Assembly: GCF_011397635.1 (NCBI RefSeq)
Contig: NC_064757.1
Span: forward strand, 28,963,839 to 29,027,838
Direction of reading: 5' to 3'
Origin: Epinephelus fuscoguttatus
Taxonomy: Eukaryota > Chordata > Actinopteri > Perciformes > Serranidae
Length of the DNA stretch: 64,000 nt
Shown: one piece after another, positions 2,343 to 51,000 of the stretch
How positions within the stretch are numbered: the first letter of the stretch is position 1
How the letters are laid out: every line of letters starts with the position of its first letter
The notes under the pieces: model-generated
What the model was told of the DNA's origin: nothing
What the model saw: only the letters and a program-made list of their open reading frames with translations
Databases searched by the model: none
Made by a program: the position numbers and the translations under genes

Positions 2343-32414
<30,072 letters not shown>

Positions 32415-37136: not shown

Positions 37137-40100
37137 GTGAGTTAAATCATTTATGTGAATGGTTTACATTTTTAAACTGTCTTAAAGTATAAAAGTCGTT
37201 TTTTAAATGTCAGTATATTCATGTCATATACCGAGTTAGGGTAACGTCAGGTTGAAATTCAGCACTTGTGTAATGCACAAGTTCGACTTCCAAGTTGCCG
37301 TACAAATACCAAAAACTTGGCACTAAACTAAAATGGACGTGTCACATTACACAGGGTGAAACACGGGCTATGTGTCCCCAATAGCTGCTGATATTGTGAA
37401 GAAAAAAAAACAACATTTTGTACAAGCAGTGTACTCAAAAACAGAATTTGTACTGTCATGTGCCTACTGGGTAAGTCATGGCACTTCCTGTTTCTACCCC
37501 ACTACTTCCCACTATACACCCACCGCCCACTTTAGTAGGTACACCTGTCCAACTGCTCCTTAACACAAACAGCATCTCAATGTATTTAAGCATGTGGACA
37601 TGGTAAAGATGACCTGCTGAAGTTCAAACAGAATGGGGAAGAGAAGTGACGTTGAGCGTGGCATGGTTGTTGGTGCCAGACGGGCTGGTCTGTCAGAAAC
37701 TGCTGATCTACTGGGATTTTCACACACAACCATCTCTAGGGTTTACAGAGGATGGTCCCAAAATGTCTTGTTGATGCCAGAGGTCAGGGGAGAATAGCCA
37801 GACTGGTTCAAGATGATAGGAAGGCAACAGTAACTCAAATAACCACTTGTTACAACCAAGGTCTGCAGAAGACCATCTCAGACCAACAGCACGTTGAACC
37901 TTAAAGTAGATGGGCTACAGCAGCAGAAGACCACACCAGGTGCCACTCCTGTCAGCTAACAACAGGAAACTGAGGCTACAGTTCACACAGGCTCACCAAA
38001 ACTGGACAACAGAAAATTGGAAAAACGTTGCCTGGTCTCATGATTTCTGCTGCAACATTCAGATGGTAGGGTCAGAAATTGGTGTAAACAACAGATGTGG
38101 GGGATATTTTCTTGGCACACTTTGAGCCCCTTAGTACCAACTGAGCACGGTTTAAACACCATAGCCTACCTGAGTATTGTTGCTGACCGTGTCCATCCCT
38201 TTATGACCACAGTGTACCCATCTTCTGATGGCTACTTCCAGCAGGATAACGCACCATGTCACAAAGCTCAGATCATCTCAAACTGGTTTCTTGAACACTG
38301 TACTCCAATGGCCTCCACAGTCACCAGATCTCAATCCAATAGAGCACCTTCGGGATGTGGTGGAACGGGAGATTCTCATCATGAATGTGCAGCTGACAAA
38401 TCAGCAGCAACTGTGTGATGCTATCATGTCAATATGGACCAAACTCTCTGAGGAATGTTTCCAGCACCTTGTTGAATCTGTGCCACAAAGACAGTTCTGA
38501 AGGCAAAAGGGATCCAACATGCTACTAGCAAGATGTACCTAATAAAGTGGCTAGTGAGTGTATTTGGCAGACACCACACACAAAAATTCTGATATTACAC
38601 AATCCAGTGTAAATCTGACTCAATAATTCTTTGGTGCTCATGGTTTCAGTAAAATGAACTGAACGGTTTGAATTGTAGAGAATCTTACCAAGCTAACACA
38701 ATATGTTGCATGTCCATATTGACAAAAGTTTAAACATTTATATTTGTATGCACAATATAACCAGCTAAACTAACGTTAGCTCCAGTGGGTAGCCAACAGC
38801 TTGGTTTCTATAAAAATAACTACATGGCAACCAGACCAGACGTCTAATTGAGACAGGCATTTATTTGTCAAAATGCGTAGCTACACCGGGCTAGTGAAAG
38901 GGACTGGGTGTTTATTTGGGCTTTTATTTGAAGTTCTACAGTATAACAAAAATAGACTAGACTAAAACACAGACACAGAAAAACAAGACAACAATGAAGA
39001 TATATGCTTTTTCATGATTTCATTTGGTAAGTATGCCAATCGCCAATTATGGGCGAAATTTTGCTCTGATTACCTGATGATGCTCCATTATTGTAATATC
39101 AGACCAAGCATTACATCATACTGTATATTCACGTGTGTGGGAAAGAATATTTTTACCACGCATGAAGTTCATTACAGTGTATGAATGCAGCTAGAACAGT
39201 CTGGTACATTCAGGAAAATACATTTCTTTATTGTATTACAGCCTTTAAAACCAGAAAAAGACAACTCTTACAATATTACGATATCCATAATATTATAATA
39301 TTCGTATTATATTTCCCAGGCATGGCTTATTATTAATAATAGATTTGCTGGTGTTAGTGATTGTCTGTCATCTCCATTTCTTACCTAGTTCTTGATACTC
39401 TTCTGTTTTGTTGAAATCATCATCATAAATCTTATCTTCCCTCCTTAAGGTGGACATACAGTTCCTGATCATGACCTTTTTGTCTCCTGCCGATATCTGC
39501 TGCCTGGGAGCCACCAGTCGCTACTGGAGGGCCATGGTCAGAGACCCGTTACTGTGGAAGTACTTCCTGCTCAGGGACATGCCATACTGGCCCTCCATCG
39601 ATCACGTCAGCATGCCCCAACTTGAGCTGTTGGATGCACCATTAATCAATGAAGACGAAAGCCTGGATGATAGAGAAGAAGGGGATGACAAAGGGGTGGA
39701 ATCGAAATGCGACTACATGTCAGAGTAGGTATCTTTCACTGTCATCCTCTATCAATGTAACAGTTTGTCATACAGAAACAATTTTTTTTTTTTAACCACT
39801 GATTTTGTCTTGACAGATACCTGAAAGGCTGCCCGTCCTGCAGACAGCAGTGGCTTCCTTCACGGCCAGCATATGAGGTCGTGACCTCGTTTCTTCAGTC
39901 TCTTGTGCTCGCATCTGAACCACGGTATGCCATGTTCGGCCCTGGCATGGAGCAGCTGGATGTGTCTTTAGTCACGAGGCTCATGCATGCCCCAGATGTG
40001 CTTCCTGTGGCGGGCACTCCGCACAGACAGATAAATGGTGAGATAACATTGATCTTAAATGCTGATGATGAAGGATTAGCTTTCTTATGAGACGCTTTCT

Positions 40101-46029: not shown

Positions 46030-46548
46030 CTGCTGCTGCTGCCATCATTAGTCATTAGTCATACTTCTACTGTTATTATACACATATGATTATTGTCACA
46101 CATGTATACTGCCAGATATTAATATATACTTTCAACATATTGTACCGCAGTAACCAGAACTATAACTATAATATTATTACTTTCATTAATGTTGTTGTAA
46201 GCTACTGTCATTACCGTCTGTCCTGCATCTCTCTCTCTCTCTTTCTTTCTATCTCATTGTGTCATAGGGATTAACGTTACTGTTAATTTATTATGCTGAT
46301 CTGTTCTGTACGACATCTATTGCACGTCTGTCCGTCCTGGAAGAGGGATCCCTCCTCAGTTGCTCTTCCTGAGGTTTCTACCGTTTTTTTCCCCCGTTAA
46401 AGGTTTTTTTGGGGGGAGTTTTTCCTTATCCGCTGTGAGGGTCAGAGGGATGTTGAGGGATGTTGTATGCTGTAAAGCCCTGTGAGGCAAATTGTGATTT
46501 GTGATATTGGGCTTTATAAATAAAATTGATTGAATTGATTGATTGATG
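46030..46548 (+). mobile_element. LINE 3' UTR and tail, plus strand
   Basis: CATCTATTGCACGTCTGTCC, GGAAGAGGGATCCCTCCTC, GCTCTTCCTGAGGTTTCTAC, GTTAAAGGTTTTTTTGGGG and TGTGATATTGGGCTTTATAA lead into a (GATT)n tail. This is a very common fish non-LTR retrotransposon 3' end. No reverse-transcriptase frame is present, so it is a 5'-truncated copy; the left limit is approximate. Confidence 0.7.
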
Positions 46549-46559
46549 TTGCTTTATTA

Positions 46560-47821
46560 CATTGTACTGTGTGTCTTTCAAAATTGCTTTGTGCTTCTTC
46601 AGAGCTAAGCTAGTTTTCCAAAATGAAGTTAGTAAAACTAAACAAAATCCTCTAACATTTAAAAAAAAAAAAAACAACTCATAAGCTACTGCAGGGTTAG
46701 CGAATTAGCTTGCTAAGTAGATTGGCTATGCGAACAAGTAAACTGACCAATAGATTTAGCAAGTTAGCTATGCTAACAAGTAAGCTTGCTTGTAGGTTAA
46801 AATACAGTTCACTAACATTACGTTACATTTTTTGACCGTGTGGTCCTGGATCAACACCAAAAAAAAAACGTTTTTAATAGACTATAAAAAAGGAGGTGGG
46901 ATGTCTTAATCGCAGGTATTTGCAACTGAAAATTTATATTATCCTTACTCTTAATTAGTGAACAATAATCTAGCCTATTGGCAAGCTTATTTGGTAGCAT
47001 AGCCTTCCTAGTTAGCAAGCTAACTTGCTAATAGTCTAGCTACCCTATTGGCAAACTTATTTGTTAGCATAGCCTTCCTAGTTAGCAAGCTAACTTGCTA
47101 ATAGTCTAGCTGGCCTATTGTCAAGCTTATTTGTTAGCATAGCCTTCCTAGTTAGCAAGCTAACTCGCTAATATTCTAGCCTATTGTCAATCTTATTCAT
47201 TAGCATAGTCTTCCTAGTTAGAAAGCTAACTCGCTAATATTCTAGCCTATTGGCAAGCTTATTTGGTAGCATAGCGTTCCTAGTTAGCTGACTAACTTGC
47301 TAATATTCTAGCCTATTGGCAAACTTATTTGTTAGCATAGCCTTCCTAGTTAGCAAGCTAACTTGCTAATAGTCTAGCTAGCCTATTGTCAAGCATATTT
47401 GTTAGCATAGCCTTCCTAGTTAGCAAGCTAACTCGCTAATATTCTAGCCTATTGTCAAGCTTATTCCTTAGCATAGTCTTCCTAGTTAGAAAGCTAACTC
47501 GCTAATATTCTAGCCTATTGTCAAGCTTATTCATTAGCCTTCCTAGTTAGTTAGCAAGCTAACTCACTCATATTCTAGCCTATTGGCAAGCATATTCGTT
47601 AGCATAGCCTTCCTAGTTAGCAAGCTAACTTGCTAATATTGTAGTCTATTGGCAAGCTTCCTCATTAGCAAAGCCAACCTACTTAGCAAGCTAACCTGCA
47701 GTAGCTTGTAAGGTTTTTGTTTAATGTTACCAAGGATTTCGTTTAGTTAAACTAACTTCATTGTGGAGAACTAGTTTAGCTCCGAAGACGAATTTTGAAG
47801 ACGCTCAGGAGCAGTACACTG
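46560..47821. mobile_element. Foldback-type element: long terminal inverted repeats around a tandem array
   Basis: The left arm 46560-46695 and the right arm 47695-47821 are inverted copies: CATTGTACTGT / ACAGTACACTG-type tips, GAGCTAAGCTAG / CTAGTTTAGCTC, ATGAAGTTAG / CTAACTTCAT and AAGCTACTGCAGG / CCTGCAGTAGCTT. Inside the arms the same ~66-70-bp unit occurs: about two inverted, degraded units on the left (46700-46800) and eleven on the right. A ~170-bp non-repeated centre separates them. No transposase frame. The design recalls Drosophila FB elements, whose inverted arms are made of tandem repeats and differ in length. Confidence 0.75.
46981..47700 (+). repeat. Tandem array, 11 units of 65-70 bp with four-unit higher-order structure
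   Basis: Units start at 46981, 47051, 47121, 47187, 47253, 47319, 47389, 47455, 47521, 47586 and 47652 (last partial). Consensus begins GCAAGCTTATTTGTTAGCAT, continues AGCCTTCCTAGTTAGCAAGC and ends TCTAGCCTATTG. Shared variants pair unit 1 with 5 (TTTGGTAGC), 2 with 6 (GCAAACTTAT and ATAGTCTAGCT), 3 with 7, and 4 with 8 (TAGTCTTCC and TTAGAAAGC). Confidence 0.93.
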
Positions 47822-47968
47822 ATAATGTCAGAGATCTGTGATTGGTTGATTGCAATGTTGGTCCAGGCGCAGTAAATCCGCCGCTGAAAATAGTCCCCAA
47901 CAAATCCACTGTTTACTTCAGTGTAACTGGTGTTTGCCAAAAATTACCATGTTTTAGAAATGACTTGG

Positions 47969-47970
<2 letters not shown>

Positions 47971-48028
<58 letters not shown>
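47971..48028. repeat. (AT)29 microsatellite
   Basis: 58 bases of perfect AT, self-complementary. Confidence 0.97.
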
Positions 48029-48032
<4 letters not shown>

Positions 48033-51000
48033 ACAGATTTATATCTTCAGTAGGAACCCATGAGAGTCACAGACAGGCTGGGGAAAGTGGAAAGTAATTA
48101 GGGAAAGACTAATGCATTGTTGGTTCTTGCCTTTAATTTAAAAAAAAAAAACATATAGAATATCACTACCCTTAGTCTTTAACATGGATTATAGGATATG
48201 GATGAATATGGATTACAGCAGACTGACAAAGCAGAGTCATCAACAATAGCACTTGCACTGTTTCACTTTCAATAAAATCACTGAATGTGGCAAAAAAAGA
48301 CATGGTGCAGGTCATTTTCTAGAGGCTAAAGGCAGATCTGCAAGACAGTGATTTCATCATTTAAATCAAGCCCTAATCAGGGGCAGAGCCAGACGTTTAA
48401 ACATTCAGTGCTCAGCCCAAACCTAGGGGGTCCGAGGGCACGCTCACCTGTTTGCAGCAGCTATATGCACTCTTATTCAAGCCATTCAAGATAATAGAGT
48501 GCCTAAAATTTATACATCATTTGTGAAAAACAGGATAGTTGCCAAGGGAAACAAAATCATCCTGTAGAGCTTACATCCTATTTTTGATCTCCAACTGTGT
48601 TCATCATTCTGAAGCCATAACAAAATAAATGTTGACGAAATGATGACTGATTTTCCCTCCTGCCATCTAAAAAGAGACAAAAAAGTAGAGTTCACTGAAT
48701 TAATGTTTATCTCATAAATCTGCTACATTTGAATCAATGCCATAATAACCTTGGTTGAGCTAATTGCAAATCAAGGATCCCTAACAACGCCAAGTAAATG
48801 TGGTCTTCAATACTCTGACATGAATATTTGCTATCTTCAGGGAGTAGCAAGGCTGGAGCTCCAAGAGCCAACCCCTAGTCTGCCCCTGGCCCTAATGACA
48901 CATGCTAGGATCACAGATAATAGAATACTTCATTTAAAAGCATTTTAATGGCTGGTTTAACAACTAACACCCGATTGTTCACCTAATATCCCACAGAGGG
49001 CGTAGCTGAGGGGGATAGCTTGGGGAATGAGGACCCAGTTCCAGGCCTCCAGTGCAGGCCCAGTGGCATCAGTCTGTGGGCCAGATGCATTGTTCTGTTG
49101 TCACATTCAATACAGCATAAGTCCACATGATCACTCGGAGCAGACAATCACAGGAATGAGTACTCAATAACAAAGGAACTAATTCAAAGGACGCCCTCAG
49201 TCTCCTCCAATCAGGGCTCTCTGTCCAACAACTGACCATTACACGGACGTGTTCAGGGGTCATTTAATACATACAAATTGTTTGGCAGTGTTTTTTCTAT
49301 TAGGTCATTATTGTCACAAAGGGCCTCAAGTCTAGTAAGAGGTCACAGCTACTTGCATTAACCCTAATGTTGCTTGAATTTATTTGTTTAATCTCAGTGA
49401 GGTGGAGAAAGTCATCATGCACAAAACTTCCTAACCTCATTACAACAAGTACAAGTTCTAGCTGCAGTATCCATGTTGCCTGAGAGCAGCCTCTGTGTCT
49501 CGCTGAGTGTTTTTATGCACGCTGCAGCTGTAGGACTTGGAAAAGCCGAGCCATAACTTGTGGGCCTCGTAGATGAGAAGGAGACAGGGATAGCTATAAA
49601 AATACAAGGATGGCTCTGCTCAATACGGACAGGCCAATTCCATTTCTTTCCCCTGGCATCACAAATTATGTCAACAATGCATCTGTGCATTGGTGGAAAG
49701 GAAAATACACCCCTTTCAGGCCTCATCTGTCTCTCTGTCAGTATGTTTGTCACTCTGACTTTGTTTCTATTTACAGCTGACCACGCTAGACGCTATAGGT
49801 TCCAGTACATCCTGTTTTCTTACTACTACTCACTGCTATTGGAGCATACAGGCTTGACTTACTCATATAACTTCATCAATTGTAAGTGAGCACTGCATGT
49901 AAAGTGGGGTGAGTTATAGCAAGATGTTGCCATGCAAAATGAAACCCTGATGCTTTGGCTTTATTACTGCAATTGATGTTGTTTACACTGATGGATGTTT
50001 GCCTTGGGATGATCATCGATTGGAAGGCAAATCCTGAAAAGACAAACTACCACAAGCTCCACGCAGGCAGATACGTTCATACATTTTAGCAGCAGCAGCA
50101 ACAGCTGGGTGTGTTTTTCTCTCACGTGTCGGGGCGGGCCGTCCATACTAATTGATGGCTCTTGGGTCGGGGGGTGTATATCCACTGACAGCTGAAATTC
50201 TAGGCGAGCCTCTCATGGCGTCACTTCTCCAGTGGGCCCTCCACGTGAGCCAAAGCAGGCTATAGTTTATAGACAGACGCAGCCATTCAAGCTGCTTGGA
50301 GTTCTCGGCATCAGCGCGGGAAGTTGTTCAGTGACGGCAGATTTTCTAAAGACAGTCTCCATTTTACAATCCTGAAGCAGCTGACATGCACACAAAAGTT
50401 TTATTTTCATCAATGCCAGTCAGACAGAATAACAGTAATCTCTCTGGTGACTCTCTGAAAGCAGCAGGTATGTGATCCATCCGCAGTCTCTAATTGGAGT
50501 GATGTTGCGCACTGTCAAAGCGCAATTACGCACGGCAGATGCGCGGGTTAAATTAGGCCTATACGCATCATGCACCAGAGTGGTACAAAAATAACCGCAG
50601 AAACCTCCGTGCTCATGTGCACATGAAACAGGTCGCTTATGGTTAATTATTCTACAAGGTTTGTTATGTAAATCAATAGGCGTGTTGAAGATTGACACAA
50701 TTCCATGAAAGGTTGTCTATTACCATCAGCGCGTCATCCTCCTAGTCTGACCACAGTGGCATACCTCCTGGAGCTACAAATCAGACGGTGGCTGCCATGT
50801 GAAACATATGTGATGGAGATTTGTCGGGTTCAATTTCATGATGATGTTCGCAGAGACAAAACTTATTTATTTGTACACCATATTAACCCACTTTATGGAG
50901 GTATGGTGATCAAAACAACCATTGTGCGCAGTGACAGGGGCTGATTGCGTAAAACACCCCAAAACGCTTACCAGCAGAGCAAAACCCATTCATTAAACAC

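Follow-up and report, generated by a model that had tools for sequence, protein, structure and literature searches.

The interval 46560-47821 of the 64-kb stretch of DNA analysed here (the window) is a 1.26-kb inverted repeat, the arms of which hold 65-70-bp units in unequal copy number. We consider it likely that this is the remnant of an old, non-autonomous foldback-like DNA transposon, a long-armed MITE, and from its sequence and from analogy with described elements we regard this as the best reading. The long inverted arms with tandem units, in a different number per arm, are foldback-like. The longest stop-to-stop frame in the element has 58 codons, as in non-autonomous elements, and there is no transposase gene of its own. 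In Drosophila, the FB elements have inverted arms that are likewise repeat-built and unequal; the likeness is an anatomical one, to FB as generally described.

When 46540-47840 was compared with the window by BLASTN, the stretch 46596-46784 paired in inverted orientation with 47788-47609 (198 columns, 74.7%, E=9.6e-32), while the alignment of the arms reaches CATTGTACTG at 46560 and CAGTACACTG ending at 47821. The full arms measure about 256 bp on the left vs about 867 bp on the right and flank a 139-bp centre (Table 1). According to the alignment, the order of the domains is common to both, namely an outer domain, units and an inner boundary, the last of these being an addition to the earlier account. 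The coordinates given in the initial annotation, 46560..47821, hold almost to the base in the arm alignment. The arms of about 130 bp described there correspond to the outer domains, for which we find about 130 and 122 bp, and the about two inverted units on the left and eleven direct units on the right are recovered as one full and one shortened unit on the left and eleven on the right. A fold of the whole element at -228.5 kcal/mol pairs the two ends, and, being calculated without a shuffle control, is an illustration only. At gathering scores Rfam has 0 matches in the window, and a reading as an RNA family was rejected on this ground.

Table 1. Features of the 1.26-kb inverted repeat, in window coordinates.
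Feature	Position	Strand	Basis and remarks
Left outer domain	46560..46687	+	Begins CATTGTACTG; inner limit approximate; 98/113 aligned bases and shuffle control
Left-arm unit Lout, 66 bp, inverted	46688..46753	-	Unit alignment and tree
Left-arm unit Lin, shortened to 42 bp, inverted	46754..46795	-	Unit alignment
Left inner boundary	46796..46815	+	Ends GTTCACTAA; inverted match to 46955-46974
Unique centre, 139 bp	46816..46954	.	Without detectable relation to the unit
Right inner boundary	46955..46974	+	Begins TTAGTGAAC; inverted match to 46796-46815
Right-arm units R1-R10, 65-70 bp each	46975..47645	+	TRF, unit starts, unit-tree split
Duplicated block: R2-R4 (47045-47246) again as R6-R8 (47313-47514); R1/R5 probably included	47045..47514	+	Block alignment
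Outermost right unit R11, cut at 60 bp, outer limit approximate	47646..47705	+	Variants in common with the left unit
Right outer domain	47706..47821	-	Ends CAGTACACTG, reverse complement CAGTGTACTG

We now turn to the outer domains and the ends. Between 46560-46689 and the reverse complement of 47700-47821, 98 of the 113 aligned bases are identical (87%, gaps not counted). Taken alone (46560-46690 and 47700-47821), the outer domains reach a local score of 91, whereas 1000 dinucleotide-preserving shuffles averaged 18.7 and did not exceed 30. The inverted homology halts at both ends beside CA(T/G)TGTACTG, and the two termini are unlike, with CATTG on the left vs CAGTG on the right. ATTA (left) and ATAAT (right) carry the inverted symmetry a few bases further, which may be due to chance. 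Beyond this, the flanks (46200-46560 and 47815-47970) have no match to each other in window searches with E up to 1 and 5, and the possibility that the arms run on into the flanks was therefore rejected.

No target-site duplication was found, in that no direct repeat abuts either end of the element. No word common to 46530-46575 and 47805-47850 is longer than 6 bases, and the left copy of the 6-base word lies within ATTG repeats; the 8 bases adjoining each end differ, so that no 8-bp duplication is seen, and a 9-bp duplication, the length in Mutator / Rehavkus elements, was not found at the element ends either. Such a duplication may have been lost through age or through a neighbouring insertion. 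The initial annotation had proposed an FB-like foldback transposon, and of this the architecture with repeat-built, unequal arms holds, while a target duplication at the ends is lacking. For hAT elements, the terminus consensus is YARNG (form CAGNG) and the target duplication is 8 bp. The CAGTG of the right end fits this form and is compatible with hAT, but the CATTG of the left end does not fit it and, like the missing 8-bp duplication, is not compatible.

In the surroundings of the element, a retroelement-like 3' tail with ATTG repeats at its end, which we take to be a fish retroelement tail, is located at 46330-46545, about 10 bp to the left. It may have disturbed the left side of the element. 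An AT dinucleotide run of 37 copies (47971-48044) is located 150 bp to the right. The tail bears on another explanation, according to which the inverted arms are the inner part of a longer element that has its true ends outside 46560-47821 and was cut on the left by the tail. The tail finishing so close to the left end and the missing target duplication would agree with this. However, the two flanks are without match to each other and both arms stop at a similar motif, so that we judge this explanation to be improbable. That the arms might lie within a longer repeat had also been considered in the initial annotation, and it is not borne out by flanks without a match and arms that stop together.

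Next, we consider the tandem units and the kinship between the arms. TRF gives a period of 66 with 11.0 copies at 46964-47699 and 86% matches, and the unit starts of the right arm run from 46975 to 47646 at a spacing of 65-70 bp. R1-R10 are mutually 74-99% alike, and the right units differ by 1-27%. Lout is 63-74% identical to the right units in the multiple alignment and 65-84% in pairwise comparisons, where R11 is best with 84% and the next unit has 76%. A tree of the units splits R11, Lout and Lin from R1-R10 with an ultrafast bootstrap of 96. At columns 15, 30, 31 and 36, R11 has the same base as Lout, and another base is found in 10, 10, 9 and 10 of R1-R10, respectively. Lout has 6 of the 15 bases that set R11 apart from the majority of R1-R10. 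When the columns were resampled (n=1000), the unit nearest to Lout was R3 in 318 cases, R10 in 226, R11 in 225, R1 in 143, R2 in 85 and R9 in 3. Since only 6 of 15 columns are common and the resampling does not single out R11, the split of R11, Lout and Lin is better supported than a one-to-one pairing of the outermost units. Because of its internal deletion, the alignment of Lin is ambiguous, and the bases at columns 30-36 may agree only through the way this deletion was aligned.

The unit consensus contains an inverted repeat, TTAGCAAG-CTAA-CTTGCTAA, with a predicted stem, which is exact in R1, R2, R6 and R10 of the 11 right units and could promote slippage. As to the origin of the unit, a relation to the centre was rejected because the score was reached by 893 of 1000 shuffles; the best match of the centre elsewhere in the window has 19 bases (E=0.08). 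That the unit arose out of the outer domain, the origin proposed in the case of Tetris, is unsupported, with a best local score of 18 that was reached by 137 of 1000 shuffles.

The element is known from a single copy, and elsewhere in the 64-kb window the search found nothing more of it than matches of 22 and 24 bases to the A-rich stretch. The single copy and the absence of a target duplication at the ends are also what one would have if a minisatellite-bearing stretch had been duplicated in inverted orientation at this one locus, for example by template switching, without ever being mobile, the array then growing on one side. The hairpin in the unit could favour both slippage and template switching. 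However, the arms have a distinct inner boundary as well as an outer domain in common and end together on both sides, and the anatomy is like that of several described transposon families. Such a single-locus duplication is thus unlikely in our view, and we keep to the transposon remnant as the preferred reading. The element presumably moved at some time, and a transposase was presumably responsible for this.

The right arm has a further internal order. R2-R4 match R6-R8 at 198 of 202 aligned bases, and for R1-R4 against R5-R8 the figure is 259 of 268. Four rare variants were tested, three of which are confined to R1/R5, R2/R6 and R4/R8, respectively. The fourth, ATAGTC with a 4-bp longer unit, is present in R1, R2 and R6 and absent from R5, and R1 is closer to R6 (96%) than to R5 (92%). 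A plain four-unit copy does not fit, because the fourth variant sits in R1, R2 and R6; on the basis of the aligned units, a block of three was copied, and the block probably comprised four, with a later change. The mean identity by offset among R1-R10 has its peak at offset 4 (92.1%), which is only slightly above offset 5 (90.6%) because R5/R9 (75%) and R6/R10 (91%) lie outside the block. The block copies are closer to each other than the arms are (97-98% vs 87%), and the block duplication is therefore probably younger than the divergence of the arms, given equal rates and no gene conversion.

Unequal exchange and slippage would both account for the block duplication, and the data fit either. 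The initial annotation had suggested that the right arm expanded by unequal exchange while the left one stayed short. The growth is supported by the unit-tree split and by the block duplication at 97-98%, but unequal exchange specifically is not, since slippage fits equally well. The right arm probably grew in place, after insertion, and we infer that the left arm never expanded, rather than having lost units. It is important to point out that arrays are error-prone in short-read assemblies, and the exact unit number could be wrong through assembly. It is very improbable, however, that the array was inflated or mirrored in the assembly, because mis-joined copies of one sequence would not show the 13% divergence of the outer domains or the differences among the right units given above.

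In the mechanism that we propose, a transposase from an autonomous partner would have mobilised the element through recognition of its outer domains (at 46560 and 47821), with the units in each arm acting as a spacer or as extra binding sites for the transposase. In the early state, one or two units would have stood between the outer domain and the inner boundary of each arm. On the right, a variant among the inner units would then have multiplied, and later a three- or four-unit block would have been duplicated by unequal exchange or replication slippage, to yield the eleven units on the right. By analogy with Galileo and Tetris, the units may once have aided transposition as extra transposase-binding sites. 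The extracts of the papers report such extra sites in the tandem repeats within the inverted repeats of Galileo (PMC3573991), and the Tetris authors suggest them for the Tetris repeats too (PMC4079207). The Tetris authors further propose that transposition may have been disrupted by larger arrays, which thereby opened the way to satellite growth (PMC4079207). By analogy, the present element fits such a course from a large array to satellite growth.

It is important to note that the architecture is already known, as described in extracts of the corresponding papers, from flies (Tetris and Galileo F), nematodes (Tm1) and cod (gadMor-hAT-1784). The claim in the initial annotation that no such family is described in fish is, for the architecture, contradicted by gadMor-hAT-1784 of the Atlantic cod (PMC12368964). 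The latter consists of two inverted repeats of about 600 bp made of 167-169-bp tandem units, has mean lengths of 1,334-1,404 bp at breakpoints, and is called a hAT-derived non-autonomous MITE in the extract of that paper (PMC12368964). The present element is like it in its apparent teleost host, in having no ORF and in its two long inverted repeats of tandem units. It differs, when the two are compared by description, in the length of the unit (167-169 bp there vs 65-70 bp here) and in that gadMor-hAT-1784 sits at inversion breakpoints in a tandem arrangement (PMC12368964).

The other elements are compared here on the same kind of extracts. Tetris of Drosophila virilis also has a flanking domain, a tandem-repeat domain, an inner domain and a non-coding middle, and its unit number varies, with unequal crossing-over as a possible cause of the change in array size (PMC4079207). 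Unlike the present element, however, it has a unit of about 220 bp and target duplications of 8-10 bp, its units also form long satellite arrays, and Mutator has been proposed for it (PMC4079207). Tm1 of Meloidogyne has composite inverted repeats, unequal unit numbers per end and a conserved inner motif, as here, and its domains, like those of Tetris, follow one another as in the present element, but its unit is 13-15 bp, its target duplications are mostly 9 bp, and transposase-bearing members are known (PMC3169594). In Galileo subfamily F of Drosophila mojavensis, tandem repeats lie inside the inverted repeats and the arms are unequal within a copy, but it belongs to the P superfamily with a known transposase, and the repeat is about 210 bp in two or three copies (PMC3573991). 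Rehavkus, finally, has a minisatellite adjoining the terminal inverted repeat; it differs by a transposase ORF and 9-bp target duplications, and is listed for Arthropoda and Annelida only in the table of the paper (PMC6446971).

The element thus probably represents a new family with a known architecture, set apart from gadMor-hAT-1784 by description. Four strings from the unit had no match in published papers, which is a weak test because repeat libraries are not in papers. For four strings from the terminus or the outer domain, none of the 15 papers listed out of 58 was about a transposon, judged from title or opening of the abstract. The word 'foldback' does not occur in a 2020 review of fish mobile elements, the extract of an Arctic codfish paper reports MITEs and no comparable structure, and a literature search joining foldback element, zebrafish and transposon found no paper.

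We have also scanned contigs and public collections for short patterns. The unit patterns gave 0 stretches in viral contigs, and the outer-domain pattern gave 1 there, where BLASTN found only the 21-base pattern itself and short chance matches. A degenerate outer-domain pattern gave 0 in prokaryote genome contigs, a result that is silent on fish. These viral and prokaryote scans, with 0 or chance matches, are as expected there. A 16-base pattern gave 69 stretches in public collections. When 46300-48000 was compared by BLASTN with the 70 pattern-matched loci, the best match, at locus L019, had 32 bases at 94% (E=9e-7), half of which is the selected word. Once this word was excluded, L019 still had the highest score of the 70 loci (22), but 58 of 100 shuffles reached it, and this locus was rejected as a relative, the match being due to chance.

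Tandem repeats within transposons are thought to be one source of satellites. Among foldback elements, Tetris is a published case of transposon repeats giving satellites, according to the extract of that paper (PMC4079207). In the present case, the short left arm seems to retain the older unit next to the expanded right arm, and the order of events, from variant unit to expansion to block duplication, would therefore be readable at one locus. Tentatively, and as a possibility that we hold to be the less probable side of the matter, we may have here an undescribed fish foldback family and a dying copy with one arm becoming a satellite, in which one variant unit took over the right arm and multiplied in three- or four-unit blocks while the left arm keeps the original state as a record. 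If the family is multi-copy, the unit number per arm would test whether the arms grew before or after insertion. The long inverted arms are also plausible seeds of inversions, as proposed for gadMor-hAT-1784 in the extract of its paper (PMC12368964).

Three other features of the 64-kb window can be mentioned. An open frame on the + strand at 38044-38418 contains FQQDNAPCHKA, a stretch reminiscent of Tc1-like transposases; searches of Pfam, NCBIfam and PDB sequences with this frame found nothing at the cut-offs applied. A compact, small-MITE-like hairpin of 162 bp at 10041-10202 has 33-bp arms that are 97% complementary. At 4087-4605 there is a dispersed-repeat-like stretch with a direct repeat (4143-4291 and 4457-4605, 82.6%) and an inverted one (4296-4347 and 4471-4522, 84.6%), which is perhaps a rearranged or nested element.
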